Positions 2,616 to 11,922 of a stretch of 42,371 nt of DNA are shown here, piece after piece. The translations under genes were made by a program, and so were the position numbers. The stretch is from Bacillota bacterium. GTDB lineage: Bacteria; Sysuimicrobiota; Sysuimicrobiia; Sysuimicrobiales; Segetimicrobiaceae. Below the pieces are notes generated by a model. That model was not told where the DNA came from. It did not search any database and was given only the letters and a program-made list of their open reading frames with translations. Location: contig JAJPIA010000067.1 of the NCBI GenBank assembly GCA_021324975.1, positions 1 through 42,371 of the forward strand, written 5' to 3'. How positions within the stretch are numbered: the first letter of the stretch is position 1; each line of letters starts with the position of its first letter.

Positions 2616-3302
2616 CTAGCCTCGGCGTTTGGCCAACTCGTCGAACACGCGCGCCGGATCCACGCCCTGGTGCACGAGCAGGACCAGCGTGTGATACCAC
2701 AGATCCGCGGCTTCCTCGACGAGCCTCGCGGGCGTCTCCTTCCTCGCTGCGCGGATGACCTCGGCTGCCTCCTCCATCACCTTCTCGTTGAGCCGGGCGA
2801 GCCCTTCGGTCAACAACGCCGATGTGTACGAGCCGGCCCGGGGCGCGCGGACGCGTTCCTCGAGCACGCTGATGAGCTCGTCCAGCACCGCGGAGGCCGC
2901 CCCGCGCGCGGTCCGGGCGGCCGCGCCCGGCGATGCCACAGGGCCGGCCGGTTGAGCCTCTGCGCGAATCCGAGCGCCGTCCAGCGTCACGCTTCTATAA
3001 AAGCACGTGGCGTGGCCGGTGTGGCATGCGGGGCCGGTTTGGTCCACGGTCAGCACAACGGCATCGCCGTCGCAGTCGAGCCGCACGGCGCGAACATGCT
3101 GCGTGTGCCCGGACGCCTCGCCCTTGCGCCACAGCCGCCGCCGCGACCGGCTCCAATACCAGGCCTCCCCTGTGGCGAGCGTCCGTTGCAGCGCCTCCCG
3201 GTTCATGTACGCCACCATCAGCACGGCGCCGGTCGAAGCGTCCTGGGCCACGACGGTCACGAGTCCCGCCGCGTCGAAGACGACCTCATCGGCTTGTAGC
3301 AT
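2616..3302 (-). CDS. hisI: bifunctional phosphoribosyl-AMP cyclohydrolase / phosphoribosyl-ATP pyrophosphatase
   Basis: HisIE catalyses steps 2 and 3 of histidine synthesis: PR-ATP to PR-AMP, then ring opening of PR-AMP. The N-terminal HisI domain (about residues 1-110) shows [12 protein letters not shown], the tract [13 protein letters not shown] and the zinc-site region [25 protein letters not shown] linker of about 25 residues leads to the HisE domain, with [15 protein letters not shown] and [14 protein letters not shown]. The ATG at 3302 is preferred over one at 3308 because GGAGG lies 6 nt upstream of it. It overlaps the 3' end of hisF by 17 nt, which suggests translational coupling. The product is 228 aa, normal for the fused form. 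Confidence 0.96.
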
Positions 3303-4071
3303 GCGCATCCTCCACCGGGCGCACGGCCACGCCGCGCGCCGCCAAGAACTCCTTGACCGCGGCGATGCTGTACTTACGATAGTGGAAAATCGAGGCGGCC
3401 AGCACCGCGTCTGCGTCCGCTTCGACGATGGCGGCCCAGAGGTGTTCCGGGGCCCCCGCGCCGCCCGACGCGATCACGGGGATCCGCACCGCACCGGTCA
3501 CGGCGCGAAGCAGCGGCAGGTCGTAGCCGTCTTCGCGCCCGTCCTCGTCCATGCTGGTCAGCAAGAGCTCGCCGGCACCGAGCGCGGCGGCCTCGGCGCT
3601 CCACGCCACCGCGTCCATGCCCGTGGGCGTGCGCCCCCCGTGAACGTAGACTTCCCATCGCCCGTGGCCGGCGCGGCGCGCATCCACGGCCACGGCCACA
3701 CACTGGCTGCCGAACAGGCGTGCCGCTTCGCGGATGAGCTCCGGCCGCCGCACGGCCGCCGTGTTGATCGCCACTTTGTCGGCGCCGGCACGGAGCATCC
3801 GCCGCATGTCCTCGGCGCTACGCAGCCCGCCGCCCACCATGAACGGGATCGTGAGCACCTCGGCGGTCTTGCGTACGACGTCCTCCATGATGCCCCGCCC
3901 TTCGTGGCTCGCGGTGATGTCCAAAAACACCACCTCGTCGGCGCCCTCGCGATCGTACAGCGCCGCGAGCTCGACCGGATCGCCGGCGTCGCGCAGATCG
4001 ACAAAGCTCGTCCCCTTGACGACGCGGCCCGCGCGCACGTCGAGACACGGGATGACACGCCGGATGAGCAC
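3286..4071 (-). CDS. hisF: imidazole glycerol phosphate synthase, cyclase subunit
   Basis: HisF is a (beta/alpha)8 barrel that takes ammonia from HisH and converts PRFAR to imidazole glycerol phosphate and AICAR. It starts with the typical [19 protein letters not shown], containing the first catalytic Asp. VAVAVDARR carries the second catalytic Asp, and LLTSMDEDG and PVIASGGAG form the phosphate sites. I choose the GTG at 4071, one base after the hisA stop codon. An in-frame ATG upstream would add an arginine-rich tail absent from the family. The product is 261 aa, against a usual length of about 252. Its gene sits directly between hisA and hisIE. Confidence 0.96.
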
Positions 4072-4072
4072 G

Positions 4073-4795
4073 CTACGCCGCCGCGGCGAGCAGGTCCTGG
4101 AGGCGCACACGCCCCTCGTACAATGCGCGGCCCACGATCACGCCCTCCAACCCCCGCGCCTCGAGGGCCCTGAGGCCGCGGACATCGGCGGCCGAGGCGA
4201 CCCCGCCCGACGCGATCACCGGCGCGGCGGCGACCTCGAGCAGCGCTTCGAGCTCGCGCAAGTTTGGCCCGCCGAGCATCCCGTCACGGCTGGTATCCGT
4301 GAAAATGAGACGCCGCGCGCCCGCCTCGATGACCCGCACGGCGGCGTCGACGGCCCGTTCACCGGTCGCCGTGACCCACCCGTCGGTCACCACCGACCCT
4401 CCGCGCGCGTCGATGCCGACCGCCACGCGATCGCCAAACTGCGCGCAGACATCTCGGAGGAAATCCGGCGACGTCGCGGCCGCGGTCCCGAGGACGACCC
4501 GCGCCGCGCCTCCGACGAGGTACCGCGCGACCGCCGCCGCGTCGCGGATGCCGCCGCCGACCTGGACCGGCAGGCGCACCGCGCGCACCAAACCCGCGAT
4601 CGTGTCCTCGTTCACGGGGCGCCCCTGGAACGCGCCGTCGAGATCGACGACGTGCAACCACGGCGCACCCTCGGCCTCCCACCGCTGCGCGGCCGCGATC
4701 GGATCGTCACCGTAGACCAGCTCGCGGTCCCGCGCGCCCTGAATCAAACGCACGCACCGCCCCTGCCGGATGTCAACGGACGGCAGCACCAGCAC
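4073..4795 (-). CDS. hisA: ProFAR isomerase (HisA)
   Basis: HisA is 1-(5-phosphoribosyl)-5-[(5-phosphoribosylamino)methylideneamino]imidazole-4-carboxamide isomerase, a (beta/alpha)8 barrel performing an Amadori rearrangement. Visible motifs are [14 protein letters not shown] with the N-terminal catalytic Asp, [28 protein letters not shown], and [11 protein letters not shown] with the second catalytic Asp. [10 protein letters not shown] forms the C-terminal phosphate-binding loop. Translation starts at a GTG (4795), and the 5' end overlaps hisH by 23 nt. The length of 240 aa is normal. Because trpF is not in this window, I cannot tell whether it acts like the bifunctional PriA; the sequence looks like ordinary HisA. 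Confidence 0.95.
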
Positions 4796-5399
4796 CGACG
4801 ATCCACCTCGCGATGTTCTGCAGCATGCGGATCCCCACCGCGCCCGACTTCTCGGGATGAAACTGGGTCGCCCAAAGATTGCCGCGGCCCACCACCGCGG
4901 CGACCTCGACCCCGTAGGACGCCGTCGCCGCGACCACGGCCGGATCGGCCGGCACGGCGTGGTAGGAGTGGACGAAGTACACGTACGCCCCCGTGGCGAT
5001 GCCGTCGAGGAGGGGGGACGGCCGGACCACGCGCAGCCGGTTCCACCCGATGTGCGGCACCTTGACCGTGTCCGGCAGCCGCCTCACGCGACCGGGCACG
5101 ATACCGAGGCCGGCGTGCCGCCCGTCCTCCTCGCTCTCGTCGGAGAGCAGCTGCATGCCGAGGCAGATGCCGAGGAAGGGCCGCCCCGCGCCCACGTGTT
5201 GCCGGATGCGGTCGTCCCAGCCGAGCGCCCGCAGCCGCGCGACTGCGGGCCCAAACGCGCCGTCCCCCGGGACGACGAGCGCCGCGGCGTCGCGCAACGC
5301 GTCCGGCGCCTCGACGATCCCGACATCCAGCTCCAGACGCGCAAGCGCCTGATGGATGCTGTGGAGATTGCCGGCGCCGTAATCCACGATGGCGATCAC
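4773..5399 (-). CDS. hisH: imidazole glycerol phosphate synthase, glutamine amidotransferase subunit
   Basis: HisH is a class I glutaminase that feeds ammonia through the HisF barrel. The GTG at 5399 gives [14 protein letters not shown], the standard N-terminus. The nucleophile-elbow cysteine is in [11 protein letters not shown], and the His-x-Glu pair in FHPEKSG completes the triad. The 208-aa length fits the family. Its GTG overlaps the hisB TGA stop in the tetramer GTGA, so translation is probably coupled. The same frame stays open far upstream into hisB but that part is not family-like. Confidence 0.95.
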
Positions 5400-5986
5400 G
5401 ACAGCGTCCCCTTGGTCGACGGGACGTCCTCCACGCGCGGGTCCCGCTCCGTGGCGCGGTCCAGCGCCAAGGCCAGGGCCTTGAACGCGGCCTCCACGAT
5501 ATGGTGTGCGTTGCGGCCGTGCACGAGCATGAGGTGCACGGTGATCCCGGCGTTCATGGCGAACGCGCGGAAAAACTCCTCCGTCAGATCGGTGTCGTAG
5601 GCGCCGAGGCGCTGGCGCGTCACGGAAACGCCGTAGTGCAAGAACGGCCGCCCACTCACATCCACGACCGCCAGCACCAGCGCCTCGTCCAGCGGCGCGT
5701 ACGCCGACCCGTAGCGCCGGATGCCGGCACCCGCGCCGAGCGCATCGCGCAGCGCGCGTCCCAGCGCGGTGCCGGCGTCCTCCACGGTGTGGTGCGCGTC
5801 GACGGCGAGGTCTCCGGCGGCGGCCACCGTGAGGTCGAACCGCCCGTGCCGCGCGACCTGCGCCAGCATGTGGTCCAGGAACGGGATGCCGGTCGACACC
5901 TCGCACCGGCCCATGCCATCGATCGTCCACGCCGCCTCCACGCGCGTCTCCGCGGTGGCGCGGGCCGCGTGTCCACGCCGAATCAT
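5396..5986 (-). CDS. hisB: imidazoleglycerol-phosphate dehydratase
   Basis: This is monofunctional HisB, which dehydrates IGP to imidazole acetol phosphate using a di-manganese site. The duplicated metal motifs are clear: DAHHTVEDAG in the first half and GRNAHHIVEAAFKALA in the second. FLDHMLAQVARHG near the start and PSTKGTL at the end are also diagnostic. There is no HAD phosphatase domain, so histidinol-phosphate phosphatase must be encoded elsewhere. The ATG (5986) overlaps the hisD stop in an ATGA tetramer. The 196-aa length is normal. Confidence 0.97.
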   Translation of the reverse strand: MIRRGHAARATAETRVEAAWTIDGMGRCEVSTGIPFLDHMLAQVARHGRFDLTVAAAGDLAVDAHHTVEDAGTALGRALRDALGAGAGIRRYGSAYAPLDEALVLAVVDVSGRPFLHYGVSVTRQRLGAYDTDLTEEFFRAFAMNAGITVHLMLVHGRNAHHIVEAAFKALALALDRATERDPRVEDVPSTKGTLS

Positions 5987-7293
5987 GCCGGCCCGCCGCG
6001 CGCCGTCACGGCCAGGACATGGGCCGGAAAGTTCTCGTAGCGGCCAAGACGCTCCACGACCGGCCGCACGGCGGCGAGCCCGCGCGGGTCCAGACGCGCG
6101 ACGGAGGTGGTCTTGAGGTAGCTCAAAACGGTCACGCCGGATCCGACCCGCGCCGACCCGCCCGTCGGCAACGCGGCGGGCACGCCGATCGCGTAGTTTC
6201 CCGCGGAAAACGGCGTGTCCTGACCGAGGAGCACCTCGGCCGCGTGCCTGATCCGGGCGAGCGTCGCGGCGGGATCCCGCGTCGCGATCTGCAGATGCTC
6301 CGGCGCGTAGGCGTTGACGAAGTCGACCGCCTCGTCGAAGGTGCGGGCCAGGACGGCGCCTCCGCAGTCCTGGAGCGCCGCGGTCGCGAACTCGCGGCGC
6401 CCCTCCGGCAACTGGGTGAGGTAGCGCGGCAGGACGTCCTGCACCTCGTCCACCAGCGCCGCGGAGTCGGTCACGAGAATCGCCGCGGAGTCGGCGCCGT
6501 GCTCGGCTTCATTTAATAGATCGAGGGCAAGGCGGTGCGGATCGGCGGTGCCATCGGCGAGGATCATGGATTCTGTCGGACCGAGCGCGGCGAGCAACCG
6601 GACGCCGTAGCCTTGGAGGGCCAGCTGCGCCGCGAGCACGTAGGGATTGCCCGGGCCGCCCAGGAGACCGACGCGCGGAAACGTCGCGGTACCGAACGCG
6701 AGCGCGGCGACACCGGCGACGCCGTTTGCGCGGAAGACCTGCGTGATCCCGAGCAGGTCCGCCGCAACCAGCAGCGCCGGGTCCGCGCCGCCATCCCGGC
6801 GCGGCGGCGTCACCGCCACGATCTCCTCGACGCCGGCCACGACCGCGGGCGCCACCATCGTGATGAACGTCGAGGGGAACGCCCCTTTGCCGCTCGGCAC
6901 GTACACGCCGGCGCTGTCGACCGGTGTCCACTTCACGCCCACGGTGATGCCGGGTTCCACTTCGTCCAAGACGAGCTGGGGCGGCCGCAACCACTCGCTG
7001 TACCGCCGAACCCGCGCGATGCTCGTCTCCAGGGCGGTGCGGAGGCCGTCGTCGACCGCCTCGTAGGCCCGCACGGTGTCCTCGCGATCGACACGCAGGC
7101 GCTCAGGCGCGAGCCGCACGCCGTCGTAGCGTTCGGTATGGTCGAGCACGGCGGCGTCTCCCCGCCGCCGCACGTCCTCGATGATGTCACGGACGTGGGC
7201 CAGCCGCTCCGGCGCCAGCGCCTCGGCGCGGGCGCGGCGAAGCATGCGCTCTAACCGCTCGGGCGGTGCGTCGCCGAGCCTCAGGACGTCCAC
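5983..7293 (-). CDS. hisD: histidinol dehydrogenase
   Basis: HisD performs the last two steps, L-histidinol to histidinal to histidine, with NAD and Zn2+. The sequence shows LGGPGNPYVLAAQ (nucleotide site), GPTESMILADGTADP, LNEAEHGADS (zinc and catalytic region) and YAPEHLQI with the catalytic Glu-His pair. I choose the GTG at 7293 (VDVLRLGDAPPERL), because GGGGAGG lies about 7 nt upstream and the 436-aa product matches the family. The frame is open up to an ATG at 7347 inside hisG, but that adds an arginine/glycine-rich tail. It follows hisG by 34 bp. Confidence 0.95.
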   Translation of the reverse strand: MDVLRLGDAPPERLERMLRRARAEALAPERLAHVRDIIEDVRRRGDAAVLDHTERYDGVRLAPERLRVDREDTVRAYEAVDDGLRTALETSIARVRRYSEWLRPPQLVLDEVEPGITVGVKWTPVDSAGVYVPSGKGAFPSTFITMVAPAVVAGVEEIVAVTPPRRDGGADPALLVAADLLGITQVFRANGVAGVAALAFGTATFPRVGLLGGPGNPYVLAAQLALQGYGVRLLAALGPTESMILADGTADPHRLALDLLNEAEHGADSAAILVTDSAALVDEVQDVLPRYLTQLPEGRREFATAALQDCGGAVLARTFDEAVDFVNAYAPEHLQIATRDPAATLARIRHAAEVLLGQDTPFSAGNYAIGVPAALPTGGSARVGSGVTVLSYLKTTSVARLDPRGLAAVRPVVERLGRYENFPAHVLAVTARGGPA

Positions 7294-7327
7294 GTGTGCC
7301 CCTCCCCGTCCGATGCCGTCGCGGGCG

Positions 7328-7981
7328 TCATCGAGGCGCCGGCGCATGCTGCCCCGCCGCGCCGCGCAGCCGGTCGACGGCGGCGGCCACGGCGTCCGCG
7401 CGGCTGCGGAGGCTGACGCGGTTGACCACCAGCCTGGCCGTCGCCTGGAAGAGCTCCGCCACCTCGACGAGATGATTTTCCGCGAGCGTGCGCCCGGTCA
7501 TCACGAGGTCCATGATGCCGTCGGCGAGGCCGACCTGCGGGGCCAGCTCGACGGTGCCGTGCATCGTGATGACGTCGACCGCGCGGCCCCGGCTCCAGAA
7601 GTAGCGCTCGGTCACCCGCGGGTATTTCGTGGCAATCCGCACGGCATGCTTTCGCTCCCACTCGCGGGCCGAGTCCTCGGGGAACGCGAGCACCCCCCGG
7701 CACCTTCCGAAGCCGAGGTCGACGAGCTCGTAGACGTCGCCGGCCCGCTCGAGAAGCACGTCCTTGCCGGCGATGCCGAGGTCCGCCGCCCCGTGCTCGA
7801 CGTACGTCAGGAGGTCCGCGGGCTTCGCGATCAGGCAGCGCACGGTACCGTCGGCGCCCGGCAGGATCAACCGGCGGGTCTCGCGCCACGCCCCGGGGGC
7901 TAAGTAGCCCGCGGCTTCGAGCGTGCGCACGGCGTCCTCCTGCAACCGTCCCGATGGAATGGCGATCGTGACGCAGCTCAT
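7328..7981 (-). CDS. hisG: ATP phosphoribosyltransferase, short catalytic form (HisG-S)
   Basis: HisG-S condenses ATP and PRPP, the committed step of histidine synthesis. At 217 aa it lacks the C-terminal ACT-like regulatory domain of the long form and so needs HisZ, encoded directly upstream. Visible motifs are IAIPSGRLQEDAV, YVEHGAADLGIAGKD, IATKYPRVTERYF, and the PRPP-binding loop DLVMTGRTLAENHL. The ATG (7981) overlaps the hisZ stop as ATGA, which would keep the two subunits at matched levels. Confidence 0.96.
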   Translation of the reverse strand: MSCVTIAIPSGRLQEDAVRTLEAAGYLAPGAWRETRRLILPGADGTVRCLIAKPADLLTYVEHGAADLGIAGKDVLLERAGDVYELVDLGFGRCRGVLAFPEDSAREWERKHAVRIATKYPRVTERYFWSRGRAVDVITMHGTVELAPQVGLADGIMDLVMTGRTLAENHLVEVAELFQATARLVVNRVSLRSRADAVAAAVDRLRGAAGQHAPAPR

Positions 7982-9243
7982 CTCAGACGCCCTCCGGTCT
8001 CCTCGTCCCGCAGCGCTGCGAGCGGCATCACGTGCTGGCGGCCGCCGCGCTCACGGACCAGAACGGTCTCGCCGCGCACCAGGAACGCGCGCTCGGCGCC
8101 GCGCGCTTCCGCGTCGCGCGCGACCTCCTCCCATAGACGGCCCTGCACCTCGACCGCGACGACGAGCCCGCGCTCGCGCAGCGTTCTCGCGCAGGCCAGC
8201 GCCGCCTCCCGGCTGCCGTTTTCGAAGGCCACGACGGCGTCCGGCGCCCAGGCGTCGGCCGGCTCCTCGTCGGCGGACAGCACCCGCTCGACCCGAACGG
8301 CGAAGCCCGTCGCGGGAAGGGGCACGCCGAAGCGCTCCAGCAGGCGATCGTACCGCCCGCCGCCCAGCAGCGGCACACCGAGCGCCGTGGTATGCCCCTC
8401 GAAGACGATCCCCGTGTAGTAGTCGAAATCGCGGATGATGCCGAGGTCCAGGGTGACGGCGTCCCACACGCCGTAGGCCCGGAGCATCCGCTCCAGCGCG
8501 GCGAGATCCTCGACGACCGCCAGCAGTTCCGGCGTGTCCGCGAGCCGGCGGGCCTCGTCGATCGCGCCGGACCCCTGCAGCGTCGGCAGCGCGAGCACGG
8601 CCCGAACACGGGCCGGCGGCGCGCCGTGAACTTCGAGGAGGCGCCGCAGTTCGACGAAGTCCTTTTGGTAGAGGAGCGCGCGGACCTCGTCGAGTGCCGG
8701 CTCGGCAAGCCCGAGCCCGGCGAGGAGGCCGCGCAGGAACCCAACGTGGCCGAGGCTGACCGAGAACTGCCCCACGCCCGTGGCCTGTAGCACCTCCACG
8801 GCGACCGTGACGATCTCCGCGTCCGCTTCCAACGTGCCGGCTCCCAGCAGCTCCCCGCCGGCCTGCGGGAACTCGCGCAGGCGGCCGGATCCGGCCTCGC
8901 GCCATCGAAACACCGGACCCGCGTACGCGAGCCGGAGCGGCAGCGGCGCGCCGCGCAGCCGGGTGGCGACGAGGCGGGCCACGGGCGTCGTCATCTCCGG
9001 CCGCAGCGCCAGGAGCTCACCGTCCCGGTCCACCAGCTTGAACAGGCGCCGGCCCGCGGCCGCGCCTTCCCCGCGCACGAGCACGTCGAGGTACTCGAGC
9101 GTGGGCGTTGTCACCTCGCGGTAACCCCACCGCCGCATGCGGTCGAGGACGCGGTCGATCACCGCGCGCACCCGGGCCGTCTCGTGCGGCAGCAGATCAC
9201 GCGTGCCTGCCGGCACCTGTTGCCAGCGTTCCACGTGCATCAC
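7978..9243 (-). CDS. hisZ: ATP phosphoribosyltransferase regulatory subunit
   Basis: HisZ is a histidyl-tRNA-synthetase paralogue that has lost aminoacylation and acts as the histidine-sensing regulatory subunit of HisG-S. The N-terminus VPAGTRDLLPHETARV and the region GYREVTTPTLEYLDVLVRG resemble HisRS motif 1. Motif 2 is degenerate (FRWREAGSGRLREFPQ), and DFDYYTGIVFEGHT is the HisRS-like signature with core changes. It is 421 aa. Adjacent Met codons (9243/9240) are both possible starts. It is the first gene of the his operon, about 77 nt from the predicted transcription start. Adjacency to short hisG favours HisZ over true HisS. Confidence 0.93.
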   Translation of the reverse strand: MMHVERWQQVPAGTRDLLPHETARVRAVIDRVLDRMRRWGYREVTTPTLEYLDVLVRGEGAAAGRRLFKLVDRDGELLALRPEMTTPVARLVATRLRGAPLPLRLAYAGPVFRWREAGSGRLREFPQAGGELLGAGTLEADAEIVTVAVEVLQATGVGQFSVSLGHVGFLRGLLAGLGLAEPALDEVRALLYQKDFVELRRLLEVHGAPPARVRAVLALPTLQGSGAIDEARRLADTPELLAVVEDLAALERMLRAYGVWDAVTLDLGIIRDFDYYTGIVFEGHTTALGVPLLGGGRYDRLLERFGVPLPATGFAVRVERVLSADEEPADAWAPDAVVAFENGSREAALACARTLRERGLVVAVEVQGRLWEEVARDAEARGAERAFLVRGETVLVRERGGRQHVMPLAALRDEETGGRLR

Positions 9244-9293
9244 CGGACCTCTGCCTCTGCGCCGCGTCTGGCGTCGGCGGCATGCTTCATCAC

Positions 9294-9309
9294 GCTAAAG
9301 CACTACAGC
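9294..9309. promoter_or_regulatory. candidate operator downstream of the his promoter
   Basis: The 16-bp element GCTAAAGCACTACAGC has two-fold symmetry of the form GCTnnAGnnCTnnAGC. It also contains a direct repeat CTA(A/C)AGC. It lies roughly +11 to +26 relative to the predicted hisZ start of transcription, where a repressor would block elongation or initiation. A TrpR-family gene (10254-9907) lies upstream on the same strand and belongs to the group known to include HisR-type regulators. The link is inferred. Confidence 0.4.
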
Positions 9310-9326
9310 ACGAAAGACACCGCCGT

Positions 9327-9355
9327 ATCGTAGCATGCGCGCGGTTCATCGTCAA
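9327..9355 (-). promoter_or_regulatory. sigma70-type promoter of the his operon
   Basis: On the minus strand a -35 box TTGACG (9355-9350) is followed by exactly 17 bp and a -10 box TACGAT (9332-9327). This predicts a transcript start near 9320 and an untranslated leader of about 77 nt before hisZ. It sits in the only substantial gap upstream of the eight his genes. Confidence 0.7.
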
Positions 9356-9416
9356 CGGATCGATCTGCCCGTTGCCCTCACGCTTCGTGTTGAGGCGCCG
9401 GCCGCGGGCCCCGGAC

Positions 9417-9440
9417 CCGCATCCCGCCGGCGGGATGCGG
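9417..9440. repeat. perfect 24-bp palindrome after ccmH
   Basis: The half-site CCGCATCCCGCC is followed immediately by its exact reverse complement, with no spacer. It starts on the base next to the ccmH stop codon and lies about 60 bp before the his -35 box. It may be a terminator-like hairpin for the yerC-ccmH transcript (no U-tract is seen) or a dimer-protein binding site. Confidence 0.6.
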
Positions 9441-9914
9441 TCAGCGTTCGAGCGCGTCCAGGTCGCGGGCCAGGCGATCCAGGTCCGCCGGGTCGACGGC
9501 CGGCGGCATGGGGGGCGCGGCCCGCGCCCCGCGCGCCCACCGGCGAATGCGCCAGGCCGCGAGCGCCAGCCCGCAGGCGAGCGCGGCGAACGGACCGGCG
9601 TAGAGGATCCAGGAGACGCCGCGGCGCGGAGGCTCCGCGAGCACGCTCTCGCCGAACTGCCCGACGAAGTAGCGGAGGATCTGGTCCGGGGTTTCGCCGG
9701 CGGCGAGCTTCCGCCGGATGACGGCCCGCATCTCCCGGGCCACCGTCGAGTCGCTCTCCGCGACCGTCTGTCCCTGACACACCGGACACAGGAGCTGGCG
9801 GGCCACCCCGTAGACGCGATCGTCCAACGTCACCGCCGGCGCGGCCGCGGCCGCGATCAGGATCACGACCGCGGCGAGCGCCACGATCCGGAGCGCCGGA
9901 GGGCCGCTACGCAT
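9441..9914 (-). CDS. ccmH: cytochrome c maturation protein CcmH (CycL-like)
   Basis: This is a membrane-anchored thiol-disulfide protein of system I cytochrome c maturation that helps reduce or hold apocytochrome for haem ligation. It has an N-terminal signal-anchor (RIVALAAVVILIAAAAAPAV) followed by the diagnostic LLCPVCQGQTV with redox cysteines 43 and 46. Next come SDSTVAREMRAVIRRKLAAGE, typical of the family, and a second membrane segment (WILYAGPFAALACGLALAAW) before a proline-rich cytoplasmic tail. The ATG at 9914 overlaps the upstream yerC-like gene by 8 nt, so the two are probably co-translated. No other ccm gene is in the window. Confidence 0.87.
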   Translation of the reverse strand: MRSGPPALRIVALAAVVILIAAAAAPAVTLDDRVYGVARQLLCPVCQGQTVAESDSTVAREMRAVIRRKLAAGETPDQILRYFVGQFGESVLAEPPRRGVSWILYAGPFAALACGLALAAWRIRRWARGARAAPPMPPAVDPADLDRLARDLDALER

Positions 9915-10254
9915 GATCGCGGTGTGCCGGGCGCGGGCGCCGCCGGCGCGCCCGATCGACGCCGCGGGCGAGCCGCCCGAGAACCAGCGCGTACCCGTCC
10001 GCCCCGTAGGCCAGGAAGCGGCGCACCCGGCTGATCGTCGCCGACGATGCGCCCGTGCGGGCCTCGATCTCCTGGTACGTGCGGCCGTCGTCCAGCATCC
10101 GGGCGACCGCAAACCGCTGCGCGAGCGCCTTGAGCTCCCCGACCGTGCAGAGGTCCTCGAAGAAACGGTAGCACTCCTCGACCGTGCGCAGGCGCAGCAC
10201 GGCTTGAAACAGCGCATCGGTCAGGGGGTTTCGCAGCTTGGGATTGACCACGGC
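9907..10254 (-). CDS. YerC/YecD TrpR-family transcriptional regulator (HisR-like)
   Basis: This is a small DNA-binding protein of the TrpR-related YerC/YecD family. The core reads NPLTDALFQAVLRLRTVEEC, FFEDLCTVGELKALAQR and a helix-turn-helix DGRTYQEIEARTGASSATISR. That layout (long helix, then a TrpR-like HTH) is highly characteristic. After the HTH the tail is arginine-rich. The start is uncertain: a GTG at 10254 (VVNPKLRNPLT) fits the family best, with a longer in-frame start at 10278. Members of this family include the histidine-biosynthesis regulator HisR of Gram-positives. The location upstream of the his operon makes that role likely here, but it is inferred. Confidence 0.85.
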   Translation of the reverse strand, partial: AVVNPKLRNPLTDALFQAVLRLRTVEECYRFFEDLCTVGELKALAQRFAVARMLDDGRTYQEIEARTGASSATISRVRRFLAYGADGYALVLGRLARGVDRARRRRPRPAHRDHA

Positions 10255-10307
10255 GTGATCACCGTCCCCGGCGCGCACGCGTCACTGGCAAGCAGCGCAG
10301 CCTTCGC

Positions 10308-11153
10308 TCACACCAGCGCCTCGACCTGCCGGGCTTCCCACTCGCAGTCCAGTGCGCGAAACGATACCGCCGCGGCGACCACCAGGTCCACGGCGTCGGA
10401 TCGCCCGGCGGCCAGCGCCGCGTGCGCCTCGGCGCGGGCGGCCCTGGCCTGGAGGTACCGATTGCCGGCGTCCCGCAGGGCTTCTGCCGCGTCGCGGGCA
10501 ATCCGCACGGCCCGCTTCGCGTCCCGGCCTGCCGCGAGCGCCTCCGCGAAGTCGCACGCGGCCACCGCGCGGCCTTGGATGTCCCGGTCCGGCCACGCGT
10601 CGAGCGCCGTCGCAAAGAGGCGCAGCGCGTCGCGGCGGCGGCGCTCGTCCTCGGGGCGGAGCTCATGCAAGCGCACGAGCAGCGCCGCCTTCGTCGCCTG
10701 CGCGGGCGGCGCGGCGCCGGTTGCCCGCAACCGCCGCGCGAGCGTGAGCGTGCGCTCGCAGGCCTCGATACCGCCCTCTGCCGCCCCGACGGCCTCCTCC
10801 CCACGCTCCACGTCGGCGAGATCCCGGTACGCCCCCTCCAGCCCGTGGCGGTAGGGCAGCGTGTCCTCCGCGCCTCGGTGCCGGCGGACAATGTTCACGA
10901 GCTCCTGGGCGAGCACCACGGCCTGCCGCGAGTCGTCGGCATCCCGCCGCAGGCGAAGCGCAAGGGAGAGGCCAAGGAGCGTGTTCACGAGCGGCTCCCC
11001 GCCGCCCGCGCCCCGCTGCAGTCGCTCGGCCTCACGGAACGCGGCGACGGCGGGGGCCAGATGCGTCCGCCCCTCCTGGAAGAACGCGGCCAGATGCCGC
11101 CACCCGGCCGCCAGCCGTTCCTCGGCGGGCTGCGGGTCGGGAACGCCGCTCAT
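10308..11153 (-). CDS. TPR-like helical repeat protein of unknown function
   Basis: This is an unrecognised 281-aa cytoplasmic protein, almost entirely alpha-helical and alanine/arginine-rich. Repeated helix pairs such as LAAGWRHLAAFFQEGR, PAVAAFREAERLQRG, RDALRLFATALDAWP and AVRIARDAAEALRDAG look like divergent tetratricopeptide repeats. There is no signal peptide or catalytic motif. The start at ATG 11153 (MSGVPDPQPAEERL) is chosen because the preceding gene stops at 11156 and upstream in-frame codons are arginine-rich noise. It is probably co-transcribed with the membrane protein gene just upstream and may act with it. The TPR assignment is by pattern only. Confidence 0.6.
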   Translation of the reverse strand: MSGVPDPQPAEERLAAGWRHLAAFFQEGRTHLAPAVAAFREAERLQRGAGGGEPLVNTLLGLSLALRLRRDADDSRQAVVLAQELVNIVRRHRGAEDTLPYRHGLEGAYRDLADVERGEEAVGAAEGGIEACERTLTLARRLRATGAAPPAQATKAALLVRLHELRPEDERRRRDALRLFATALDAWPDRDIQGRAVAACDFAEALAAGRDAKRAVRIARDAAEALRDAGNRYLQARAARAEAHAALAAGRSDAVDLVVAAAVSFRALDCEWEARQVEALV

Positions 11154-11155
11154 TG

Positions 11156-11893
11156 TCAGGACGTGGCGCGCGAGACGGCCGGCCGGAGGCTCAGCACGAC
11201 CGCGTAGCCGAGCAGCCCCAGGCCGATGACGATGCCGAGCAGCGTCCACGTTTGAAGCGTCAGGAGCTGTTGCGAGAACAGCACGGCGAGGATGCCGTAC
11301 AGCGTCTCATAGAGAACCGCGACGAGCAGGTACATGCCGAGCCGGCGATGGGTCGCCCCATATGTTACGAGCGCCGTGGACGCGGCGTTCGCGGCCACGA
11401 ACCCGAGCTGTTGCACCAGCGGGGTGGCCAGGCTTCCTGTGCCGATGGGCAGCGTCCGCGCGATCAACGCCAGCGCGATCACCTGATATGCGCCAAACGC
11501 GCCAAAGCCGGCCCCCGCCGCGGCGCCGAACGCGGCCGCGTCAACCTCCGTACCGCCCCGAGCGAGGGTCATCAGCGCCGCCGCGAGCTTGAAGATCTCG
11601 TTGATCGCCGCCGCGATGAGCGCCCCGATGAGACCGATGCCAACGTTGATGCTGTAAGCGTCGATCTCCCAACCAAACACATACGCCACGAGCGCCTGGA
11701 TGGGGTCTACGAGCAACGCCGCTACCCAAAACGCGACCGCGCCCGCGAGAAACGCGGCGAGAAACCACGGCCGGCGCATGCACCCGCGACCCACCACCGC
11801 CGCGATCACGAGTCCGTAGACGAGACCGACACCGACGGCGATGGGGGAGAATGCGAGAACGGCGCGGGAGACCGCATGAAAGAATGCGCTCAC
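11156..11893 (-). CDS. polytopic membrane protein, possibly YhfC/PrsW-like
   Basis: This 245-aa integral membrane protein has about seven hydrophobic segments, including IAVGVGLVYGLVIAAVV, WFLAAFLAGAVAFWVAALLV and LVQQLGFVAANAASTALV. A conserved-looking NEIFK in ALIAAAINEIFKLAAALM and a glycine-rich GAAAGAGFGAFGAYQVI segment recall the E-x-x-K and G-x-G-F motifs of PrsW/YhfC-type intramembrane proteases. The canonical EE and His residues are absent. The start is uncertain: GTG 11893 or TTG 11902. Its own promoter lies at 11923-11951, giving a leader of only about 23 nt. It stops 2 bp before the TPR-like gene. Function unknown; the family link is tentative. Confidence 0.6.
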   Translation of the reverse strand: MSAFFHAVSRAVLAFSPIAVGVGLVYGLVIAAVVGRGCMRRPWFLAAFLAGAVAFWVAALLVDPIQALVAYVFGWEIDAYSINVGIGLIGALIAAAINEIFKLAAALMTLARGGTEVDAAAFGAAAGAGFGAFGAYQVIALALIARTLPIGTGSLATPLVQQLGFVAANAASTALVTYGATHRRLGMYLLVAVLYETLYGILAVLFSQQLLTLQTWTLLGIVIGLGLLGYAVVLSLRPAVSRATS

Positions 11894-11922
11894 AAGGAAC
11901 AACCGATGAACACGACAGGCGT

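Follow-up and report, generated by a model that had tools for sequence, protein, structure and literature searches.

The window considered here, that is, the whole 42,371-nucleotide stretch of DNA that was analysed, carries on its minus strand a putative repressor gene, a cytochrome c biogenesis gene, a promoter-like sequence and a his operon, in the order yerC, ccmH, promoter-like sequence, hisZ, hisG, hisD, hisB and further his genes. The first gene, yerC/hisR (9907-10278), starts with GTG and encodes a TrpR-family repressor of 123 residues with both NCBIfam and Pfam matches; the ccmH-like gene (9441-9914; Pfam CcmH, 102.7 bits) lies outside the regulation discussed below. Next, hisZ (7978-9243) matches TIGR00443 with 337 bits against a cut-off of 271.65, and is followed by hisG (7328-7981; TIGR00070, 187.6 bits), hisD (5983-7347; TIGR00069, 395.4 bits) and hisB (5396-5986), which is matched by 13 HisB models with a best score of 254.6 bits. 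The remaining his operon (2616-5395; hisH, hisA, hisF and hisIE) was judged by eye from the translations, without a family search. The original prediction had placed a YerC/TrpR-family gene upstream of hisZ on the same strand; position and strand are borne out, and the two genes are not neighbours, with ccmH (9914-9441) intervening. An 8-nt overlap (9907-9914) joins yerC to ccmH; a histidine repressor and a gene for cytochrome c biogenesis make unusual partners. Two reading frames of 313 and 248 residues between yerC and leuB (minus strand, 10311-11902) matched neither NCBIfam nor Pfam models at E <= 0.001.

In profile searches, the YerC protein scored 135.1 bits against NCBIfam TIGR02531 (YerC/YecD; cut-off 42.2) and 97.9 bits against Pfam Trp_repressor (cut-off 27), which places it in the TrpR-related YerC/YecD type. 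This assignment was made from sequence, which was already decisive. Solved relatives are 3frw, 3g1c and 3kor, with E values from 6.5e-30 to 5.6e-27. The YerC segment GASSATISRVRR aligns to GASTATISRVNR of 3frw and 3g1c, and the Ala, Thr and Arg residues of the recognition helix in the helix-turn-helix, as assigned by TrpR numbering, are conserved. The roles of the three residues are described in PMC9413887, where the E. eligens protein 3G1C is named HisR. Candidatus Sysuimicrobiota, into which the lineage would fit, comprises one class, one order and five families (PMC11604079). Within its own genome, YerC is the sole match at E <= 0.001. Among 43 genomes examined from the order (own genome included), yerC was detected in 31; among 57 other genomes, it was detected in 1. 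Relatives of YerC also occur in records labelled Anaerolineaceae and Leptolinea (L099 and L102), both of which we take to be Chloroflexota. The main text of PMC9413887 names Chloroflexota in a reference title only.

Ahead of hisZ, a promoter scan identified a -35 hexamer, TTGACG (9350-9355), and a -10 hexamer, TACGAT (9327-9332), preceded by TGC as in extended -10 elements. This TTGACG-17-TACGAT promoter (9355-9327) had been proposed in the original prediction; a scan of 4.5 kb returned it as the sole sigma-70-like match, whereas 50 shuffles gave 0.0 matches on average. Transcription would start near 9320, about 7 nt past the -10 hexamer. Further towards hisZ lies the candidate operator core, CTTTAGCG|TGATGAAG (9285-9300, within a 20-bp frame at 9283-9302), which emerged from a scan of hisZ upstream regions and is the sole exact match in the genome. 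Given the presumed start, the core would span about +21 to +36. The 20-bp frame, TGCTTTAGCGTGATGAAGCA at 9302-9283, has one mismatch to TTTA-N6-TAAA, the pattern of a HisR box; the published HisR motif is cacTTTAnnnnnnTAAAgtg (PMC9413887). In its conserved form the element reads CTTTAnCn|nGnTAAAG, a HisR box of the Bacillota type with its centre between 9292 and 9293, and the copy in the window is an imperfect dyad (TGATGAAG as against CTTTA).

To place the core in a wider context, hisZ proper was defined by E values below 1e-78 and was found in 32 of 44 genomes; the others yielded weaker matches of the hisS kind, and one had none. The best 16-mer to CTTTA-N6-TAAAG was then taken from about 360 nt upstream of hisZ in 30 of the 32 hisZ genomes (the scan was carried 160 nt further at L121, in genome G010; loci L141 and L142, being duplicates of G010 and G008, were left out of the counts). 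A core of at least 8/10 is present in 28 of these 30 regions, 19 of them at 10/10, eight at 9/10 and one at 8/10, whereas dinucleotide shuffles of the same regions reached at least 9/10 in 7 of 2800 cases. Because genomes within a family are related, such genome counts overstate independence. All 28 sites share TTTA at -7 to -4, C at -2 and AA at +6/+7, and the invariant C lies outside the consensus used for scanning. In 28 of 28 box-bearing cases, the sequence within 75 nt ahead of the core that best matches a promoter follows TTGACn-17/18-TAnnnT.

A box was also found in G018 (10/10), which has yerC, and in G021 (9/10), in which no yerC was found, so that a box precedes hisZ in 30 of 32 hisZ genomes and in 29 of 29 in which both yerC and hisZ were found, the genome of the window among them. 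The original prediction staked itself on an operator kept before hisZ in relatives that keep the yerC-like gene; this is what is found for the operator in its corrected register (29/29), and not for the element first named (exact in 2 of 28). Three hisZ genomes lack a detected yerC. Two of them, G019 and G022, belong to one genus (g12), have a best core of 5/10 and lack the box, an absence of box and yerC that represents at most one independent loss. In this genus (loci L131 and L130), hisZ lies close behind another reading frame as judged by eye, and no Rfam match was obtained. The third, G021, is a contrary case, being 99% complete and retaining the box; as its contig breaks off some 650 nt before hisZ, an assembly gap is a possible reason for the missing yerC. 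The box of G021 (L143) is followed by AGATAAAC at 8 bp and accompanied by a promoter-like sequence.

The surroundings of the box vary. In other families, hisZ starts less than 200 nt from the yerC match in 15 of 17 box-bearing genomes, G020 and G032 being the exceptions. At L141 and L142, some 1.2 to 1.3 kb separate the end of the ccmH match from hisZ, and promoter and box still stand immediately before hisZ despite this long gap. At L117 (G007), the tail of an rve-type integrase (Pfam rve_3) stops 45 nt short of the his -35, as if a mobile element had inserted itself between ccmH and the his promoter and left promoter and operator intact. The hisZ contigs of G001 and G004 end about 240 nt upstream of hisZ.

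The core does not stand alone. In the window, a first outer half-site, CTGTAGTG (9301-9308), lies 8 bp upstream of the core half-site, and a second, CTTTCGTG (9309-9316), lies 16 bp upstream. Counting as a half-site any match of at least 4/5 to CTTTA on the promoter side or to TAAAG on the hisZ side, we found one exactly 8 bp from a core half, on either side, in 25 of the 28 sites of the order and in 14 of its 16 genera. At 16 bp there is one in 15 of 28, as there is for promoter-side CTTTA (at least 4/5) at the position of the second outer half-site, and other distances from 5 to 40 give 0 or 1 of 28. The side on which the 8-bp half-site falls depends on the family: promoter side in 10 of 11 and other side in 0 of 11 for f1, hisZ side in 5 of 5 and promoter side in 0 of 5 for f4. 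TA steps at -5, 3, 11 and 19 from the core start occur in 16, 28, 24 and 9 of the 28 sites, with a median of 0 over offsets; those at 3 and 11 are implied by the choice of the core.

The same register appears in Bacillota. From 35 genomes we obtained 30 hisZ loci, of which L177 and L199 were dropped for having hisZ near a contig edge; the remaining 28 include two boxes that score only 7/10 and ten loci with hisZ below its curated cut-off. Half-sites occur at 8 bp in 23 of the 28 (13 of the 18 loci whose hisZ passes the cut-off and 10 of the 10 whose hisZ does not), at 16 bp in 10, and at other distances in 0 to 4. TA steps at -5, 3, 11 and 19 number 18, 26, 27 and 10 of 28, with a median of 1, those at 3 and 11 again being implied by the choice of the core. 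Of 76 loci scanned upstream of yerC itself in Bacillota, 10 have a box of at least 9/10, and 9 of these 10 carry the 8-bp half-site, with other distances at 0 to 3. At the level of sequence, then, these operators have half-sites repeated at 8 bp, as in a tandem operator. We consider it reasonably probable that, in Bacillota as well as in this lineage, HisR/YerC operators generally form strict arrays of TA-centred half-sites at 8 bp instead of single 20-bp palindromes and are occupied by at least two tandem dimers, in the manner of TrpR; tandem binding would then be ancestral to the whole TrpR/HisR family. The number and side of the flanking half-sites, which vary by family, may tune repression, and the 'gtg' flank of the published motif may partly be the start of the next half-site. 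We found no description of an 8-bp HisR array in literature titles and the starts of abstracts, and in the main text of PMC9413887 the word 'tandem' refers solely to histidine codons and riboswitches, while 'cooperativ' appears for T-boxes alone.

Of the alternatives, the one that survives best is that the operator consists of the 16- to 20-bp core only, repressed by a single HisR dimer, with the outer half-sites as leftovers or low-affinity decoration. The outer half-sites are indeed degenerate, and they switch sides between families (left in f1, right in f4). Moreover, HisR of Ruminococcus gnavus (R. gnavus) shows histidine-dependent binding to a 20-bp site with poly-G flanks (PMC9413887), and flanking half-sites are therefore dispensable for binding there. 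Against this, the strict 8-bp register (25/28, 23/28 and 9/10) is hard to explain without selection, and for the related TrpR two dimers in tandem have been reported on synthetic operators (PMC8745587). We thus regard a core-only operator as unlikely, and retain the array as the more probable form of the site.

The extent of the regulon was approached by pattern searches. An exact search with CTTTANCNNGNTRAAG hit a single place per genome in 8 of 10 same-family genomes, and one with CTTTANCNNGNTAAAG did so in 10 of 19 other genomes, where the reversed-pattern control gave zero in all 19. The patterns were derived from hisZ sites, and the informative part of the result is the absence of further copies: the 18 exact copies in 29 genomes all lie before hisZ. 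Genomes without an exact match have variant cores, except G019 and G022, which have none. With up to one mismatch allowed, core matches in the 10 same-family genomes came to 99 rows (a count that includes exact matches and both strands of palindromic sites) against 135 for the reversed-pattern control. A wider regulon was rejected, as these matches do not exceed the control overall, though they do in the genome of the window (G000, 11 versus 4) and in G002 (12 versus 2). Autoregulation of yerC through a full core box was likewise rejected for the same-family genomes, in which exact matches stand before hisZ only. Judged by these searches, the regulon looks like a single target.

These counts bear on whether YerC, bound here, might sense a ligand other than histidine or also serve another regulon. 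Changed functions have been proposed for some HisR2 paralogues, at tyrosine and tyramine genes (PMC9413887), the yerC gene overlaps ccmH, and the one-mismatch matches in G000 exceed their control. Set against this are the single yerC match and the position of all 18 exact boxes before hisZ, and we hold such a role to be very unlikely.

Taken together, the locus very probably constitutes a local HisR-type repression circuit, in which histidine-bound YerC occupies the core and the 8-bp array and blocks RNA polymerase. The YerC/HisR protein, an expected dimer, would take up histidine and then bind the core at 9285-9300, just downstream of the his promoter; that the core is bound by the YerC encoded at the locus, with histidine as co-repressor as for the R. 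gnavus protein, is what we predict. Further dimers would very likely align in 8-bp steps on the flanking half-sites, which here cover 9301-9316 and in some other families lie on the hisZ side. The resulting tandem repressor array, from about +5 to +36, would sterically keep RNA polymerase from forming or leaving the promoter complex: because the array would lie in or beside the footprint of promoter-opening RNA polymerase, histidine-loaded HisR would block initiation or escape. When histidine drops, the array would come off, and hisZ and the downstream genes would be transcribed.

A conserved element in a predicted 5' untranslated region could instead act in the RNA, as a leader hairpin, an attenuator or a T-box-like switch, the more so as CTTTA and TAAAG could pair. 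This RNA leader mechanism was rejected and strikes us as highly improbable: the leader RNA folds no better than its shuffles (z 0.79), and neither the window leader (at the gathering threshold) nor the six loci tested gave an Rfam match. In 6 of 28 sites the outermost pair of the core is disrupted without a compensating substitution, and the inner pairs are nearly constant; moreover, on the left the outer half-sites repeat the core half in direct orientation, a feature for which a hairpin has no need.

Equally improbable is the circuit in the form in which it was originally predicted, with the 16-mer GCTnnAGnnCTnnAGC (9294-9309) as operator and a 24-bp palindrome as a second element, even though both sequences exist: an exact copy of the 16-mer occurs in 2 of the 28 genomes with a box (G000 and G002), against 28 of 28 for the shifted core (sites chosen for their core) and a box in 30 of 32 hisZ genomes, and the palindrome has neither another copy in the genome nor a counterpart longer than 12 bp in G002 and occurs at about chance level. 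The element read on the minus strand, GCTGTAGTGCTTTAGC (9309-9294), overlaps outer half-site 1 and the core, and is not conserved as such. Its dyad, centred at 9301/9302 and so 9 bp off the register of the conserved operator, arises because the outer half-site CTGTAGTG (9308-9301) adjoins the core half CTTTAGCG.

The perfect 24-bp palindrome lies between yerC and hisZ as described, at 9417-9440, starting at the base after the ccmH stop codon; its link to the circuit did not hold up. It is the longest perfect even palindrome of the window, the runner-up measuring 18 bp. From base composition, about 0.012 such palindromes are expected in the window and 1.2 in the genome; the palindrome is unusual for the window, and not for the genome. 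A search of its own genome with up to 3 mismatches detected no second copy, and in G002, the nearest relative (92% identity in hisZ), perfect even palindromes within 330 nt ahead of hisZ reach 12 bp at most. A role as operator or repeat element was rejected on these grounds. The palindrome is possibly a 3' hairpin of ccmH; in a 66-nt context, its RNA folds no better than shuffles (z -0.47). The general reading of repressor, promoter and operator before the his operon as a HisR-type circuit has good support, with the operator moved to another register and the palindrome left out.

This repressor-operator circuit resembles several known systems. Tandem TrpR dimers are offset by 8 bp, and the half-site of the trp operator is CTAG. 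The E. coli TrpR operators share with the present array the protein family and TA-centred half-sites at an 8-bp period; tandem dimers are reported for TrpR (PMC8745587) and predicted for YerC. They differ in half-site (CTAG there, CTTTA here), in target and in presumed ligand. An operator of the TGTAcTnGTnnACnAgTACA type, the TrpR motif given in PMC9413887, is not what was found; the operator is CTTTA...TAAAG before hisZ. T-boxes and attenuators of his genes perform the same job, control of histidine genes, and here the leader contains no T-box or other Rfam family. The closest counterpart is the HisR (YerC) regulon described in PMC9413887, with which the locus has in common a YerC/TrpR-family regulator, CTTTA-N6-TAAAG before the his operon and a nearby regulator gene. 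According to that work, the regulator gene is near the his operon in Peptococcaceae and in most Selenomonadales/Acidaminococcales. The locus differs from it in that ccmH stands between yerC and hisZ in the family of the window, and in that the operator is here read as an array of 8-bp half-sites, there as one 20-bp palindrome. The HisR coverage of PMC9413887 extends to Firmicutes, Actinobacteria, Proteobacteria, Synergistetes, Dictyoglomi, Elusimicrobia and Mollicutes; its main text contains no occurrence of 'Armatimon', 'Sysuimicrobi' or 'CSP1'. We see here a known kind of HisR system in a new lineage, with an extended operator that appears to be undescribed, no description having been found.

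The candidate circuit extends HisR-mediated repression of histidine synthesis to an uncultured lineage absent by name from the main text of the main HisR paper. With an operator fixed to the base and an apparent single-target regulon, it offers a system that is simple to test, and the 8-bp array connects HisR with the tandem binding of DNA by TrpR in a way that can be tested. If true, the array would alter both the models of HisR sites and the searches for them in the many Bacillota with HisR control.
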